From positions 1-64,000 of the forward strand of contig VFZX01000002.1 of the NCBI GenBank assembly GCA_016871015.1: a DNA stretch of 64,000 nt, in the 5' to 3' direction. The notes beneath the pieces were generated by a model, which saw only the letters and a list, made by a program, of their open reading frames with translations, made no database searches and was not told where the DNA came from. Numbering within the stretch: the stretch's first letter is position 1; the number at the start of each line of letters is the position of its first letter. Source of the stretch: Acidobacteriota bacterium. Its GTDB lineage: Bacteria; Acidobacteriota; Terriglobia; Bryobacterales; Bryobacteraceae. The position numbers and the translations under genes are program-made. Shown here piece after piece: positions 14,714-30,732 of the stretch.

Positions 14714-17653
14714 ATGAAGCTCAGACTCTGCCTAGGCGGCGCTCTCCTTTCGGCGGGATTGCTCGGGGAGGATACCGGCGTCCGGCTCGTCCTCGGCTAT
14801 GGTGACGCTCTCCAAACCGCGTGGGATGGCTCGGTGTCGGCCAAGGGCGCCCGGATTAAGGAAGTGGGGCCGTGGCGTTTCGAAGCCCCGGACGCCATCG
14901 ACGGGACTTCGTGGAAGGCGCAGATCCATCAGATCCGCCTGTTCGGAGCCGCGAACCGGGGCGTTGCTCCGCCGCCCGTGGCCAATGGCGTGATTGTTCA
15001 ATTGACGGACGCGGGCCGTGACGCCGTGCTCGATGTCCGCACCGCGCAGGGCGCTTTCAGTGTCAGCCTGGCGCAGATCCCTTATGGAAAAATGGTGCAC
15101 TTCCTGAACGGACGCGCTTCGGCGGACCGGGTCCCGGCTGCCTCCGCGGTCACCACGTCGCCCGAGGAGCAGGACTATCCTGCCGCGGCGGTGGGGGCGA
15201 ATGGCGATGTCTGGGCTGCGTGGATGGAATTCAAGCACCACCCGGAGCATAACCGGCTGCGGTCCCCGCTGAAATCTGCTCCGGCCAAGTTCGACGAATT
15301 CACAACGAAGCCGCCCGGGGACCAGATCTTCGCCGCCCGCTACTCCAACGGACAATGGCAGCAGCCGGTCGCGGTCACGCCGCCGGGAGGAGATCTCTAC
15401 CGCCCGGCGATCGCCGTGGACGGACAAGGTAGGGCGTGGGTGTTCTGGTCCGCCAACCAGGGGGGCAACTTCGACCTTTATGGGCGTGCCATGGACGGCA
15501 ACGGCGCGGCGGTCCGGTTGAGCAGCGCTCCGGGGTCCGACGTTTTCCCGGCGGCTGCGACGGATTCATCCGGGCGCGTCTGGGTTGCCTGGCAGGGATG
15601 GAGGAATGGCAAGGCGGCCATTTTCGCCGCTACGCAAAACGGAAATGGATTTGGAGCCGCGCAGACCGTGTCGTCGGCGGCGGGGAACGAGTGGAATCCG
15701 GCCATTGCGGCCGACTCCAAAGGACGCGTGACCGTCGCGTATGAATCATACCGGAATGGCAACTACGACATTTTCCTGCGGACGGCAACGAACGGAAGTT
15801 GGGCCGCCGAGCAGCCTGGAGCCGTGACGGCGCGCTACGAAGCCTATCCGTCAATCGCTTATGAGCCCGGTGGCCGGCTGTGGCTCGCCCATGAGGAAGG
15901 CTCCGCGCGGTGGGGCAAGGATTTCGGCGCCGACGAGTCGAGCGGCGTCGCTCTGTATCAGGGCCGCGCGATCCGGGTCCGCGGCTGGGACCCCGACGGG
16001 CGCGCGGTGGAGCCCGTGGCGGACCTCGGCGCGGCGCTGCCTGGAGCCGCCGCCCAACGCACCGACTCGAATGGGCGCCAGTCCGATGCCGCCGAGTACT
16101 TCTCGGCCCGCCCGGAGGCGTGGAAGAACCGGGATCCGGCCCGCCCGACAGCAAACTTCATCGCGCCCCGAAACACTTCTCCCCGCCTGACGGTCGACGC
16201 TTCGGGCCGGTTATGGCTTGCCGCCCGCAGCCCCCATCCAATCTCCTGGAGTCCGATCGGCACGGTGTGGAGCGAATACGTCGTGTCGTATGACGGATCA
16301 CAGTGGACAGGACCGGTGTTCCTCAGCCACTCGGACAACCTGCTCGACAACCGGCCTGCGCTGATTTCTCCGGCGCGTGGCGACCTGATGGTGCTGAGTT
16401 CAACCGACCACCGCCGGCAGCCGCTCGGGGCCCGATTCCGCGCCCGCGCTCTCACCGCCATCGACGACCCGTATCAGAACGACGTTGTGACGAACGTGCT
16501 CCGTCTCGGGCCGGGCAGTGGCAAACTGGAAGTGAAGACCGCGGCGGGGCCGGGCGCCTCCGGAACCGATCCGCTTGACAGGCAGGAGGAGACGCTGGTC
16601 GCCGCCATGAGGAAGGCCCGTGTGGGCGGCAACCTCCATGTCGTGCGCGGCGAGTTTCACCGTCACAGCGAGGTATCCGGTGACGGCGGCAACGACGGAA
16701 CGCTGCTCGAACAGTGGCGGTACGCGCTCGATGCCGCCAATATGGACTGGGTTGGCTGCTGTGACCACGACAACGGCGGCGGCCGTGAATACACCTGGTG
16801 GATCACGCAGAAGCTCACCGACGTCTTCTACACTCCCGGCAAATTTGTCCCGATGTTCAGCTACGAGCGCAGCGTGCCGTATCCGGAGGGCCACCGCAAC
16901 GTCGTGTTCGCGCAGCGTGGAATCCGTACGCTCCCCCGTCTTCCCCGCACGGAGGAAGCTCCCGTCCAGAAGGCTCCCGATACGCTGATGCTGTACCGGT
17001 ACCTGAAGCAATTCAATGGGATTGCCGCCATGCACACCTCCGGCACCAACATGGGAACCGACTGGCGCGACAACGATCCGCTGGTCGAACCTGTGGTCGA
17101 GATCTACCAGGGCGACCGCCAGAACTACGAAATGCCCGGCGCTCCGCGTACAAATTCAGAGAATGACTCGATCGGCGGATGGCGTCCAAAGGGCTTCGTG
17201 AATCTCGCGCTCGAAATGGGGTACAAGCTGTCGTTCCAGGCAAGCTCGGACCACATCTCGACGCACATGAGCTATTGCAACGTCCTTGCATCCTCGCTCA
17301 CGCGCGAGGCGGTGCTCGAAGGATTTCAGAAGCGCCACGTGTATGGCGCCACAGACAACATCCTGGCCGATTTCCGTTCCGGCAACCATATCATGGGCGA
17401 CGCGTTTTCGTCGGCGCGTCCGCCGGAGTTCCGGGTCAAGCTCACTGGCTCAGCGCCGTTCGCGAAAGTGTGGATGGTGAAGGACAACCAGTACGTCTAC
17501 ACAGCCGAGCCGGGAAGCGTCAATGTCGACTTCACCTGGCGTGACGCCTCGCCGGTCGCGGGCAAGCAAAGCTACTACTACGTTCGGGGGCTCCAACAGG
17601 ACGGCGAAGTTGTCTGGGTGTCGCCGATGTGGATCACGTATACGGGCAAATAG
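14714..17653 (+). CDS. Secreted beta-propeller plus PHP-like (DUF3604-type) protein
   Basis: A 979-residue exported protein. After a signal peptide (LCLGGALLSAGLL), residues about 140-560 contain repeated blades with the pattern DxxGRxWVAW (for example VDGQGRAWVFW, TDSSGRVWVAW and ADSKGRVTVAY), a beta-propeller. From about residue 640 a metal-binding PHP-like domain begins with GEFHRHSEVSGDGGND and WVGCCDHDNGGG, continuing through AAMHTSG and SFQASSDHIST, i.e. His/Asp clusters placed as in PHP phosphoesterases and DUF3604 proteins. Probably a metal-dependent hydrolase with a carbohydrate- or protein-binding propeller; the substrate is unknown. Confidence 0.7.
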   Translation: MKLRLCLGGALLSAGLLGEDTGVRLVLGYGDALQTAWDGSVSAKGARIKEVGPWRFEAPDAIDGTSWKAQIHQIRLFGAANRGVAPPPVANGVIVQLTDAGRDAVLDVRTAQGAFSVSLAQIPYGKMVHFLNGRASADRVPAASAVTTSPEEQDYPAAAVGANGDVWAAWMEFKHHPEHNRLRSPLKSAPAKFDEFTTKPPGDQIFAARYSNGQWQQPVAVTPPGGDLYRPAIAVDGQGRAWVFWSANQGGNFDLYGRAMDGNGAAVRLSSAPGSDVFPAAATDSSGRVWVAWQGWRNGKAAIFAATQNGNGFGAAQTVSSAAGNEWNPAIAADSKGRVTVAYESYRNGNYDIFLRTATNGSWAAEQPGAVTARYEAYPSIAYEPGGRLWLAHEEGSARWGKDFGADESSGVALYQGRAIRVRGWDPDGRAVEPVADLGAALPGAAAQRTDSNGRQSDAAEYFSARPEAWKNRDPARPTANFIAPRNTSPRLTVDASGRLWLAARSPHPISWSPIGTVWSEYVVSYDGSQWTGPVFLSHSDNLLDNRPALISPARGDLMVLSSTDHRRQPLGARFRARALTAIDDPYQNDVVTNVLRLGPGSGKLEVKTAAGPGASGTDPLDRQEETLVAAMRKARVGGNLHVVRGEFHRHSEVSGDGGNDGTLLEQWRYALDAANMDWVGCCDHDNGGGREYTWWITQKLTDVFYTPGKFVPMFSYERSVPYPEGHRNVVFAQRGIRTLPRLPRTEEAPVQKAPDTLMLYRYLKQFNGIAAMHTSGTNMGTDWRDNDPLVEPVVEIYQGDRQNYEMPGAPRTNSENDSIGGWRPKGFVNLALEMGYKLSFQASSDHISTHMSYCNVLASSLTREAVLEGFQKRHVYGATDNILADFRSGNHIMGDAFSSARPPEFRVKLTGSAPFAKVWMVKDNQYVYTAEPGSVNVDFTWRDASPVAGKQSYYYVRGLQQDGEVVWVSPMWITYTGK

Positions 17654-24305: not shown

Positions 24306-25505
24306 ATGGAGCGAATGCGCCTGCTTGGGCTTGGGGCGCTGATCACGGCCGAGCTCGCGCTGGTGACACTCAGCGCTGATGGGGCCAACCTGCCACAGGG
24401 CGCTGGCGGGCTGATCGGGCTGCTCGACGACTGGGGCGCCTGGATCGCGCGGTGGATTGTGGCGTCCGGAGCGCTGTTCGGCGCGATCGCCTATTTCCGG
24501 CCGGGAACGATCGCCGTGACTGGTGACTGGACTCCGCCCAGCGGCCCATGGCTTGCGATCCATGTGGCCTGCGCGACGGCGTTCTGGCTGTTGTCACGCA
24601 GCCTGTACAGCCAGGCCGCGAGTACAGGACTGCTGATGGCCTGGATCTCAACAGGAGCAGGCACGGTGGCAACAGCAGCCGCGGCACTGATCCCACGCAC
24701 CGCCATCGGACCTTTGCTTCGCGGGGCGGCGCCGGCGATGCTGGCGAGCGCCCTGGCGGGGGCCGCGGCTTGCTGGCTCGGCGCGTTCTCACAGCGGCTG
24801 TGGCGGCCCGCGGCGGGAGCGACGTTCGTGATCGTGAAGGGACTCCTCGGAGTCCTTGTGGGTGACGTCGTTGTCGAGCCTTGGCGGAACCGTGTAGGTA
24901 CGCAGCGGTTTGGCGTCCTGATCGCGGAGGAATGTTCGGGGCTTGAAGGCATCGCGCTGTTCCTCGCTTTTGCCGTTTGCTGGCTGGTGCTGTTCCGGGA
25001 TGAGCTGCGGATCGGGCGGGCGCTGGCGGTACTTCCGCTCGGGGTGGTGGCGGTTTATCTGGCGAACTCAGTGCGAATCACGCTTCTTGTCCTGATCGGC
25101 CACGCCGGCTACAGGCAAGTTGCGGTGCAGGGATTCCATTCGCAAGCAGGCTGGATCGGATTCAGCCTCATCGCATTCGGTGTGCTCGCAGCAGCCCGGC
25201 GGTGGAGTTGGCTCTCGAAGCTCCCGCCAGCCAGCGCCAGCCAGCGCCGCCGAGTATCACAATCCAGCGGCGCCTTACCTGGTTCCGTTCCTCGCGGTCA
25301 TTGCGGCCGGAATGATTTCCGGAGCGCTGTCCGGCGGGTTCGAGTGGTTCTACGGCCTTCGTGTCGTTGCGGGCGGCGTGGCGCTTTGGATGTTCCGGTA
25401 CCAGTACAAGAACATCGATTGGTCCTGGAGCTGGCTAGCGCCAGCCGCCGGAGCCGCGGTATACGCCATCTGGGTCGCGCCGGACTGGCTGGCTGGGCGT
25501 GGTGA
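24306..25505 (+). CDS. Exosortase E half of a frameshifted exosortase E/CAAX-protease gene
   Basis: An integral membrane transpeptidase-like enzyme that should recognise and cleave C-terminal sorting signals. Multiple hydrophobic helices span the reading frame. The exosortase catalytic triad is intact: Cys210 in AEECSGLEGIALF, Arg257 in LANSVRITLL and His278 in QGFHSQAGWIGF. Homologous sequence continues to about nucleotide 25225; beyond that the frame runs through a 10-bp duplication and becomes unrelated sequence, ending at 25505. Known exosortase E proteins are fused to a C-terminal CAAX-type protease, and exactly that domain follows in another frame. The VPEID-CTERM substrate gene lies just downstream. 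As sequenced, this half could still fold as an exosortase without its protease partner. Confidence 0.8.
   Translation: MERMRLLGLGALITAELALVTLSADGANLPQGAGGLIGLLDDWGAWIARWIVASGALFGAIAYFRPGTIAVTGDWTPPSGPWLAIHVACATAFWLLSRSLYSQAASTGLLMAWISTGAGTVATAAAALIPRTAIGPLLRGAAPAMLASALAGAAACWLGAFSQRLWRPAAGATFVIVKGLLGVLVGDVVVEPWRNRVGTQRFGVLIAEECSGLEGIALFLAFAVCWLVLFRDELRIGRALAVLPLGVVAVYLANSVRITLLVLIGHAGYRQVAVQGFHSQAGWIGFSLIAFGVLAAARRWSWLSKLPPASASQRRRVSQSSGALPGSVPRGHCGRNDFRSAVRRVRVVLRPSCRCGRRGALDVPVPVQEHRLVLELASASRRSRGIRHLGRAGLAGWAW
25226..25248 (+). repeat. 10-bp tandem duplication that breaks the exosortase E/protease reading frame
   Basis: GCCAGCCAGC occurs twice in direct succession (25226-25235 and 25236-25245), followed by a partial third copy GCC. 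Deleting one unit joins the upstream frame to the downstream frame: the product would read SKLPPASAAEYHNPAAPYL straight into the protease domain. The duplication is therefore the likely cause of the frameshift. Confidence 0.85.
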
Positions 25506-25887
25506 AGAGAAAATGCCCGGGGGTCTTGCCCAGGCGCCGGAATGGCCGAGGTGGGGCTGGATCGCGCTCCGTGCGATAGGCGGTACCGTAGTCATTCCTC
25601 TTGTTGAGGAATTGGCCTTTCGCGGTTATCTCTACCGGCGGTTCGTACGGGGAGAATTCGACAATGTCCCATGGACCTTTTTCCGCTGGACAGCGTTGGC
25701 CGGTTCATCGGTGCTCTTCGGTCTGATGCACGGCGACCGCTGGATTGCTGCCTCCATCGCGGGTGCGGCCTATGCCGGACTGGTGGTTTGGCGGGGACGG
25801 CTCGGCGACGGCGTGGCCGCGCACGCGGCAACCAATTTTCTGCTTGCGCTCACCGCGGTACTTGGGCAGCAGTGGTACTGGTGGTAG
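25246..25887 (+). CDS. CAAX/CPBP-type membrane protease half of the frameshifted exosortase E fusion
   Basis: About 213 residues of open frame downstream of the 10-bp duplication, with no convincing own start codon or ribosome binding site at its beginning; an internal ATG near 25310 would remove the first membrane helix. It has several membrane helices and all three CPBP/CAAX protease motifs: EELAFRGYLYRR (EExxxR), LFGLMHGDRW (FxxxH-like) and HAATNFLLAL (HxxxN). In intact relatives this domain is the C-terminal part of the exosortase E/protease polypeptide of the VPEID-CTERM system. Whether it is translated here depends on frameshifting, reinitiation or loss of the duplication. Confidence 0.75.
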   Translation, partial: AAEYHNPAAPYLVPFLAVIAAGMISGALSGGFEWFYGLRVVAGGVALWMFRYQYKNIDWSWSWLAPAAGAAVYAIWVAPDWLAGRGEEKMPGGLAQAPEWPRWGWIALRAIGGTVVIPLVEELAFRGYLYRRFVRGEFDNVPWTFFRWTALAGSSVLFGLMHGDRWIAASIAGAAYAGLVVWRGRLGDGVAAHAATNFLLALTAVLGQQWYWW

Positions 25888-25984: not shown

Positions 25985-26149
25985 ATGAAGTTTGCTGGCT
26001 TGATGATGGTTTTGTTCGCGGTTGCGGCTCCGATGTTGGCGAGCACCCGGGCCCCGGTGGTGCCCGAGATCAACGCGGCCACGGGAGCAGCGGCGATTGC
26101 TCTGGTTTCAGGGGGAATGATGGTGCTGCGCAGCCGACGGAGGAAGTAG
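25985..26149 (+). CDS. VPEID-CTERM small protein, predicted exosortase E substrate
   Basis: A 54-residue protein that is almost entirely signals. It has an N-terminal signal peptide (KFAGLMMVLFAVAAPMLAS), the sorting motif VVPEIN at residues 25-30, a hydrophobic helix AAAIALVSGGMMVL and a basic tail RSRRRK. This is the VPEID-CTERM architecture (TIGR04161 type), with Asn instead of Asp in the last motif position. Cleavage would leave a mature peptide of about ten residues. It starts 97 bases after the exosortase E/protease region and has its own strong ribosome binding site, so it is probably the dedicated substrate. Its stop codon is directly adjacent to the convergent hydroxylase gene. Confidence 0.8.
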   Translation: MKFAGLMMVLFAVAAPMLASTRAPVVPEINAATGAAAIALVSGGMMVLRSRRRK

Positions 26150-27988: not shown

Positions 27989-29443
27989 GTGCAGATCGCT
28001 GAACTTCTCAAAAACCGGGGCGTGTTGGCTGGAATCGGTGTGCTCGCCTTTGCGGCGGGAGTGTTCTGGGTTGATGAACGGCCGCTGGCAGCGAGGAAGA
28101 AGACCCGGCCGCTGATTCCGGTCTCCAGTGGGGAAAAGGCGGGCGAACGGCCCGTGTACCCCTATTCCGTGGTCCCTGGAGGCGTTTACAGCGGCAAGGA
28201 GGCCAAGGAGGCGGCCAAGAAGGACCCGGTAGTCAAGAAGCACTACACAGAGCAAGGCGTGGATGTCGACAGTCTCGAGGCGACCAAGCTCAAGTCGGCC
28301 AAGAAGGGATATGTGTCATACCGGGTCGGTGACCGCATCTATTGGACCAAGAAGAAGGTCGATCTTGCGCCAGGCGAGCTGGTGCTGACCGATGGGAACG
28401 AAAAGATCCGCGGCCGCTGCGGCAACATGATTTCGGATAAGCCGAAATCGCCGGTGTCCCCGATCGAGCCGCCGGAAAAGGACATGAACACGCCAGCCGA
28501 GAAATTCACGCCTCCGGCGGGGGCAGCGTCGATCTTCCCCCTGCAGGGGGAAATGCCGGTGCTCGCTGAGGTCAAGGAAGCGCCGGCCAACTGGTGGCAG
28601 GAGGGATCCTCGAACGGCGGGAACAACAACCATGCGGGGGGATCCGGATCGGGCTTCAACGGCGGCGGGTCCGCAGTCGGCGGGTTCGGCGGCGGCGGTG
28701 GTGTTGGTGGTGGAGGTGGAGGCGGAGGCGGAGGCGCCGGGAGTGGAGGCGCCGGAAGTGGAGGCGGCGGTGCCGGTGCCGGTTTCCTCGCTGATTCGTC
28801 TTCAGCGGGTGCAGGCGCGGGAGAACAGCAAGGCGCGGGCGCCGGCGGCGGTGGCACCGGAACGCTGCCCGCATCCATGGCGGGGATCACCAATGTCGGC
28901 ATCAATGGTACCGGGTACAACCAAGTACTGCCGGGCGGTTCAGGCAGCTCCGTGGTGCCCATCGGCAACGGCCGGATCGGACAAGATAGCGTTCAGGTCC
29001 GCAGTGCAAGCCTGGTCTCGTGGGGAAATGACAGTGGGGTCTCGTTTTCCAACGGAGGAGCGGGCTCGGGCGGGGGCGGAACCCTCAAGCCGGATGGACT
29101 TGTGACGAATCTTGCGGACGGAGGCGGGAGCAACCTTCCGTCGCACCCGTTCAGCAAGGACAAGAATCCCACGGCACAGGGGACTCCCGCCACCCTCATT
29201 TCCACGGTCGCGCACAACCGGTCCGGAACGGATGGCACGGGCTCAAGCACTCGCGGGCAAGGCACCGCTACTCCTCCCGCCGAAGTGAAGATCACGCAGC
29301 GGCGGGATAATCCCCGGCCCGAGGCGCTGATGGACGGCGATGGAGCCGTGAACCGGGTGGCGCAGACGCCGGAGCCGGCCACGTTTGCCTTGGTCGGAGT
29401 GGCTTTACTTGCCCTAGGACTGCGAAAACGCGGATTCCGCTAA
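27989..29443 (+). CDS. PEP-CTERM protein with YSV-PGG domain and glycine-rich linker (paralogue 1)
   Basis: 484 residues, GTG start. N-terminal membrane anchor/signal (GVLAGIGVLAFAAGVFWV); a conserved domain from about residue 50 to 150 with VYPYSVVPGGVYSG, DPVVKKHY, YVSYRVGDRIYWTKKKV and NEKIRGRCGN; then a low-complexity Gly/Ser/Ala-rich region of roughly 250 residues. It ends in a textbook PEP-CTERM signal: TPEPATFALVG, a hydrophobic helix and the basic tail RKRGFR. PEP-CTERM signals are processed by exosortases in the envelope. The N-terminal domain is shared with the next gene, so the two are tandem paralogues 47 bases apart. Function unknown; an exported, Gly-rich surface or matrix protein is a fair guess. 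Confidence 0.8.
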   Translation: MQIAELLKNRGVLAGIGVLAFAAGVFWVDERPLAARKKTRPLIPVSSGEKAGERPVYPYSVVPGGVYSGKEAKEAAKKDPVVKKHYTEQGVDVDSLEATKLKSAKKGYVSYRVGDRIYWTKKKVDLAPGELVLTDGNEKIRGRCGNMISDKPKSPVSPIEPPEKDMNTPAEKFTPPAGAASIFPLQGEMPVLAEVKEAPANWWQEGSSNGGNNNHAGGSGSGFNGGGSAVGGFGGGGGVGGGGGGGGGGAGSGGAGSGGGGAGAGFLADSSSAGAGAGEQQGAGAGGGGTGTLPASMAGITNVGINGTGYNQVLPGGSGSSVVPIGNGRIGQDSVQVRSASLVSWGNDSGVSFSNGGAGSGGGGTLKPDGLVTNLADGGGSNLPSHPFSKDKNPTAQGTPATLISTVAHNRSGTDGTGSSTRGQGTATPPAEVKITQRRDNPRPEALMDGDGAVNRVAQTPEPATFALVGVALLALGLRKRGFR

Positions 29444-29490
29444 CGGGCTCCCACGCGAGGCCGATGAGTCCGGCAGGAGCCGGATTGAAA

Positions 29491-30732
29491 ATGAATCGGC
29501 GGATCGTGATTGGAGCGGCGCTGATAGCGGCGCTCGGAATCCTGGTGCTCAGAAAGGCAGGCCGCGAGGCCGGGCACAATGAGAGCGCCATGAGGGTAAG
29601 GGCAGAGAAGGTGCGGAACGTTGCACCGCGGCGCCCGGTGTATCCCTACTCGGTGATCCCCGGCGGTTCCTTCAGCAGTGCCGAGACGCAGGACTGGGTG
29701 GACTCCGATCCTGTTGTCCGGGATCACTACAGCGGGATCCGCACCAAGGATCTGCGCACGGCGGTTGTTCCCGCCAGCCGGCCGGTCTACGTCTCCTACC
29801 GAAAGGGCGAGCGTGTGTTCTGGACGGCGAAGAAGGTAACACTGGCAGCCGGGGAAACGGTCTTGAGCGATGGCAACGAACAGATCCGGGCCCGGTGCGG
29901 GAACCGGATCTCGGCGCGTCCCATGTCGCCGGTCGCCTTTGACGAGCCCGGGGAGCAGGTTCTGAATGAGCCGCTGCCCACGCTCGCCGTGAACCTCGAC
30001 TGGGGACGCAGCGGCGGATTTGGATGGACAGGTCCTGTGCCCGAGCCACTGGACCGCGGCGGGCCGGGGTCTGGAACCGGATTCATTGGATCCGGTGGCG
30101 GCGGCCCGGCCGGTTCCGGCGGCGGCGGTGGGCTCGTGGTGATGGGAGGAGTTCCCGGCATCCCATTGGGGAGTGCCGGGGGCGGGGGCGCTACAGGCGG
30201 AGGAGCTGGCGGCGCCCCCATCAGTCCTGGCGGCGGCAGCCAGACAGGAGGCCAGGGGCAGGGTCCAGGCGGAGGCAGTGGAACGAACCCAGGATCCGGT
30301 GGCGGTGGCGCAACAGGCGGTGGCGGAACGGATCCGGGAGGAGGCGGAAGCAGTCCCGGCGGGGGTGGCGGGCAGGGACAGGGGGGACAAGGCGGTCAGG
30401 GCGGTCAGGGCGGTCAGGGCGGACAGGGTGGTGGCTCCACCGGAAGCTCCGGCGGCGGCGGAACAGGTACCGGCAACGGAGGTGGCAGCAGTACAACGGC
30501 GACAGTCACCATTCCGGGCACTTCACGTCCAGCGCTGCTCCCAGAGGGACCAGAGACGTTGACTGGCGCGGGAGGAACCGGCAACGGCGGCGGCGGCGGC
30601 ACTCAGATGTCGACGATTCCCTACACTGGCTCGAACGACAACCGCCCGCCTCAACCCACTCCGGAACCGGGCACACTCTTGCTGGTGGGTGCGGGACTCG
30701 CCGCGCTCGGCTGGTTCAAACGGAAACGGTGA
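29491..30732 (+). CDS. PEP-CTERM protein with YSV-PGG domain and glycine-rich linker (paralogue 2)
   Basis: 413 residues from the ATG at 29491, which has AGGAG upstream and places the hydrophobic leader (IVIGAALIAALGILVL) at the N-terminus; an in-frame ATG at 29464 is an alternative. The conserved domain repeats that of the neighbour: VYPYSVIPGGSFSS, DPVVRDHYSG, YVSYRKGERVFWTAKKV and NEQIRARCGN. The linker is Gly/Ser/Gln-rich with short tandem repeats (GGQ triplets). The C-terminus is a PEP-CTERM signal, TPEPGTLLLVG, then AGLAALGWFKRKR. It sits two bases from the convergent FAH-family gene. Confidence 0.8.
   Translation: MNRRIVIGAALIAALGILVLRKAGREAGHNESAMRVRAEKVRNVAPRRPVYPYSVIPGGSFSSAETQDWVDSDPVVRDHYSGIRTKDLRTAVVPASRPVYVSYRKGERVFWTAKKVTLAAGETVLSDGNEQIRARCGNRISARPMSPVAFDEPGEQVLNEPLPTLAVNLDWGRSGGFGWTGPVPEPLDRGGPGSGTGFIGSGGGGPAGSGGGGGLVVMGGVPGIPLGSAGGGGATGGGAGGAPISPGGGSQTGGQGQGPGGGSGTNPGSGGGGATGGGGTDPGGGGSSPGGGGGQGQGGQGGQGGQGGQGGQGGGSTGSSGGGGTGTGNGGGSSTTATVTIPGTSRPALLPEGPETLTGAGGTGNGGGGGTQMSTIPYTGSNDNRPPQPTPEPGTLLLVGAGLAALGWFKRKR
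30391..30426 (+). repeat. 9-bp minisatellite in the glycine-rich linker
   Basis: GGCGGTCAG is repeated three times exactly (30391-30417), with a fourth copy GGCGGACAG, encoding GGQ units of the linker. Being a multiple of three, copy changes would alter linker length without breaking the frame. Confidence 0.7.

Follow-up and report, generated by a model that had tools for sequence, protein, structure and literature searches.

Within a 64,000-nucleotide stretch of a contig from an Acidobacteriota bacterium (hereafter the window), the two domains of an exosortase E/CAAX-protease fusion (XrtE) are encoded in different reading frames. This raises the question of whether the locus has been broken by mutation, is switched reversibly between two states, produces two functional proteins, or is intact in the organism and merely misassembled.

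Domain composition of the locus

The features of the locus are collected in Table 1. A single 516-position model, TIGR04162, matches both parts, with positions 111-312 aligning to the first frame (98.3 bits) and positions 321-513 to the second (114.6 bits). Proteins of this family combine both domains in one polypeptide scoring above 150 bits, whereas here the domains occupy two frames and neither half reaches the 150-bit family cut-off; the locus is a TIGR04162 member by descent, but not as an intact protein. With the exosortase E/protease of the VPEID-CTERM system, which this model describes, it shares both domains, the catalytic residues, the order of the domains and the position of the linker, and a candidate VPEID-CTERM-type substrate adjoins it; it differs in that a 10-bp duplication places the domains in different frames.

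Table 1. Coordinates of features at the XrtE locus in the window
Feature	Position	Strand	Basis or context
Exosortase E half, 310 residues, triad C210/R257/H278	24306..25235	+	TIGR04162 98 bits, TIGR04178 62 bits, PF09721
Perfect 10-bp tandem duplication, 2.4 copies of CGCCAGCCAG	25225..25248	+	Frame junction, inter-domain linker
Out-of-frame Arg-rich tail, 89 residues, read past the junction in the exosortase frame	25236..25505	+	ORF list
CAAX-protease (CPBP/Rce1-like) half, second frame	25249..25887	+	PF02517 and TIGR03008 above cut-off; TIGR04162 positions 321-513
Small putative VPEID-CTERM-type substrate, 54 aa, intact	25985..26149	+	Best TIGR04161 match, sub-cut-off

The exosortase frame extends from an ATG at 24306 to a TGA stop at 25505, and the residues of the Cys/Arg/His triad characteristic of TIGR04162 are invariant in an alignment of 14 sequences. 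Beyond the junction, the tail read in this frame has a strongly negative codon score. The CAAX half is matched by Rce1-like and CAAX-protease models (PF02517, 54.5 bits; TIGR03008, 131 bits), retains the glutamic-protease motifs EELAFR, FGLMHG and HAATN intact, and has a positive codon score in the second frame only, which is open from upstream of the repeat to 25887.

The product of the putative substrate gene, which sits about 100 bp downstream of the broken fusion, comprises a signal peptide, the motif VPEIN, a hydrophobic helix and the sequence RSRRRK. It is the best TIGR04161 hit, although at 23.1 bits it falls below the cut-off of 33, and the only good match in the genome. A motif scan of the best 80 XrtE loci identified a VPEID-CTERM-type gene at 53 of them. 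Further downstream in the window are two adjoining, very Gly-rich PEP-CTERM proteins (27989-29443 and 29464-30732), the second of which contains an in-frame array of perfect 9-bp repeats at 30391; another full-length exosortase of a different type is encoded on contig C186 (L039). The XrtE system is real and little studied, and a search of the literature on exosortase E returned nothing relevant. The myxosortase MrtX (PMC11980579), a CPBP protease responsible for the sorting of MYXO-CTERM proteins, likewise pairs a CAAX/CPBP-family intramembrane protease with a C-terminal sorting tag, but it is a stand-alone protease that has no exosortase domain and recognizes a different tag.

A tandem duplication at the frame junction

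The sequence at the junction reads CGCCAGCCAG CGCCAGCCAG CGCC, with a period of 10 and 100% matching; equivalently, GCCAGCCAGC is present twice, at 25226-25235 and 25236-25245. Under a third-order Markov null, the number of tandem repeats expected to be perfect, out of frame and at least 24 bp long is only about 0.01 per 64 kb. Across 864 kb of the source genome, no other perfect repeat with a period indivisible by 3 is as long; the remaining perfect repeats of at least 24 bp have periods of 9, 12 or 24. A codon-usage scan that was blind to the repeat placed the maximum-likelihood frame switch at 25246, with all positions from 25224 to 25252 lying within 2 log units of it, such that the switch point coincides with the duplication. 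These results bear out an earlier note on this DNA, which had proposed that a 10-bp duplication splits the fusion, that the triad and the CAAX motifs lie in different frames, and that these frames meet at the repeat. Its further claim that removing one copy restores a single continuous reading, KLPPASAAEYHNP, is arithmetically right.

The duplication might nevertheless be an assembly or consensus error, with the organism itself carrying a single unit and an unbroken fusion. With 720 contigs the assembly is fragmented, nearly all relatives are intact, and the codon scan of the 864 kb detected about 14 other candidate frame switches, some of them surely false, which leaves room for assembly indels. 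On the other hand, ordinary short reads and most assembly k-mers are longer than a perfect repeat of 24 bp, which makes an assembly error less likely, and read errors do not typically take the form of a clean 10-bp duplication. Moreover, on inspection none of the four further perfect repeats of at least 20 bp that are out of frame in the 864 kb marks a broken gene: three lie in frames that are unbroken by codon score, and the fourth (L170 16810) lies in an ORF without interruption. We hence regard an artefact as unlikely, albeit the least improbable of the alternatives to a genuine lesion.

The 15 candidate same-strand frame switches in the 864 kb, XrtE included, comprise among others one at about 39874 on the minus strand of the window, L166 1804 and L184 13213. 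A second 10-bp out-of-frame repeat, at L170 16810, appeared as a frameshift by codon score, but was rejected as a lesion because the surrounding ORF, 16196-16915, is uninterrupted.

The fused form in relatives

A TIGR04162 match above the cut-off was found in 46 of 237 genomes of the bacterial family, and each of the 48 complete family copies retrieved is one single ORF. In a second, overlapping collection consisting of the best 80 loci in public genomes, from Acidobacteriota, Planctomycetota, Gammaproteobacteria and others, both domains occur in one ORF at 77. Two of the remaining loci are cut off by a contig end, and in the third (L148) the exosortase frame gives no CAAX match. A naturally split orthologue was thus not found among the best 80 loci and the 48 family copies, which tells against the possibility, raised earlier as one that would undo the proposal, that the orthologues are two separate genes with the same boundary. 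Since the relatives are fused in one ORF, the single-ORF fusion is, judged by these sequences, the ancestral state and the break the derived one.

The closest fused copy found is that of Bryobacter sp. Bin_55_1 (L069, JALHNI010000061.1), with about 50% amino acid identity and a similar small substrate gene downstream; it differs from the locus in the window in being a single ORF of 516 aa with no duplication in its linker. Its AlphaFold model (516 aa, mean pLDDT 90.7) shows the linker as a loop that joins helices 266-295 and 316-336; within this loop, residues 301-310 form the lowest-confidence block of the protein (pLDDT 70). A fold search of this model against the PDB returned no significant match. 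Measured between two fixed points, the linker spans 36-61 aa in the relatives, and it would measure 38 aa in the window with one unit.

The source genome encodes no second copy of the gene. Neither a full XrtE match nor an orthologue was found in the two congeners, G001 and G002, where a different gene follows the shared upstream oxidoreductase; because of this absence, the system looks dispensable. Elsewhere in the family, L067 1481-2559 (G178:C29) is a decaying XrtE pseudogene with an N-terminal truncation, a frameshift and a shortened C-terminus, upstream of which the VPEID-CTERM gene remains intact, and an in-frame TAA at about 2028-2030 interrupts the exosortase half of L063 (G090:C36). 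The lesions in these two broken copies are unrelated to the 10-bp duplication.

Expression of the CAAX half

If the duplication is real, the split gene could still be functional, with two proteins being made, namely a tailed exosortase and a separately started CAAX protease, or with the fusion being produced at a low level by +1 ribosomal frameshifting. The retention of all motifs and of similar constraint in both halves would accord with such a fission, as would the stand-alone CAAX-protease homologues encoded elsewhere in the source genome. However, the exosortase frame overruns the junction by about 257 bp, leaving no stop-start coupling between the two frames. The mechanical ORF containing the CAAX half (25120-25887) opens with a TTG that lacks a clear ribosome-binding site; the only other in-frame start upstream of this half, a GTG at 25180, likewise has no clear Shine-Dalgarno sequence, and initiation at ATG 25312 would cost the protease most of its first helix. 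Given these starts and the overrunning exosortase frame, the CAAX half appears on inspection to have no plausible start of its own. A slippery site could not be recognized either, and the relatives covered here offer no precedent for a split. Functional fission is therefore improbable, and less likely than even an assembly artefact.

Reversible switch or ordinary mutation

The earlier note also entertained a phase-variable switch, in which gain and loss of the 10-bp unit would toggle between the fused enzyme and the exosortase alone, separating sorting from proteolysis. Several properties of the locus are those that such a switch would have: the copies are perfect, their 10-bp unit does not divide into whole codons and the repeat lies out of frame inside an ORF, while the gene acts on surface proteins, a usual target of phase variation. 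In these respects it resembles simple-repeat contingency loci, in which a surface-related gene likewise carries tandem units whose length is indivisible by 3, but here there are two units only and they are not conserved, the duplication of 25225-25248 being absent from all aligned relatives. Nor is there an obvious start from which the second half could be made alone.

The linkers of the relatives point in both directions. Tandem repeats are somewhat commoner in them than elsewhere in the gene (4 of 88 versus 16 of 1339; Fisher p = 0.03), but the perfect repeats with a period of at least 7 found in these four linkers are all different, none is conserved, and the longest, with a unit of 15 bp, is in frame. 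The latter, 2.6 copies encoding DGTLV in the linker of L024 (G200:C100), suggests that the XrtE linker evolves by tandem duplication.

Short tandem duplications inside an ORF have also been described elsewhere. Duplications within pneumococcal capsule genes are cited as giving rise to high-frequency phase variation (Waite et al., 2001, 2003, by their titles as listed in PMC4022640). Conversely, in the lrp gene of Xenorhabdus spontaneous tandem duplications, which at 26-116 bp are longer than the 10 bp seen here, belong to a group of plain mutations that were not seen to revert genetically (PMC6786866). Our literature search for phase variation of exosortases found nothing relevant. Taking the two units, their lack of conservation in the aligned relatives and the missing start of the CAAX half into account, we abandon the switch as an explanation to be preferred and consider it highly improbable, on a par with functional fission. 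If it were true, it would be the first phase-variable exosortase, as far as the literature searched shows.

Origin, age and consequences of the lesion

The explanation that we favor as probable is that a normal exosortase E/CAAX-protease fusion acquired, in the recent past, a single 10-bp tandem duplication of an ordinary kind within its length-tolerant linker. Inspection of the sequence shows the 10-bp unit to be bounded by 4-bp direct repeats (CGCC...CGCC), and flanking direct repeats are the usual footprint of slipped-strand mispairing; hence, the unit may well have been duplicated by such mispairing during replication. The resulting +10 shift would cause ribosomes to leave the CAAX frame, and the product would be at most a complete exosortase domain followed by a meaningless 89-residue tail, with little or no CAAX protease being made. 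The paired enzyme XrtE would thus probably be knocked out or half-active. Loss of one unit could mechanistically revert the frame, of which there is no sign of use.

Relative to the closest orthologue, the approximate dN/dS is about 0.28 for the exosortase half and about 0.27 for the CAAX half, with dS near saturation; because of this saturation and the amino acid identity of only about 50%, weakly relaxed constraint on the CAAX half would escape such a measure. Within that resolution, both halves look constrained. The conservation of catalytic motifs in both, their similar dN/dS and the intact substrate gene suggest that the lesion is probably young; it may also be fixed. The alternative that the earlier note had placed beside the switch, namely a fresh inactivating mutation, is accordingly the one that gains support, with intact relatives all being one ORF and both halves appearing to be under constraint.

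Implications for the XrtE system

As a plain mutation, the duplication would provide a clean natural example of a fused sorting enzyme in the course of being lost, and would suggest that this lineage can do without the XrtE system. In the literature searched we found no paper on an XrtE exosortase half working without its CAAX half. Should the allele persist, it would offer a naturally occurring test of this possibility.
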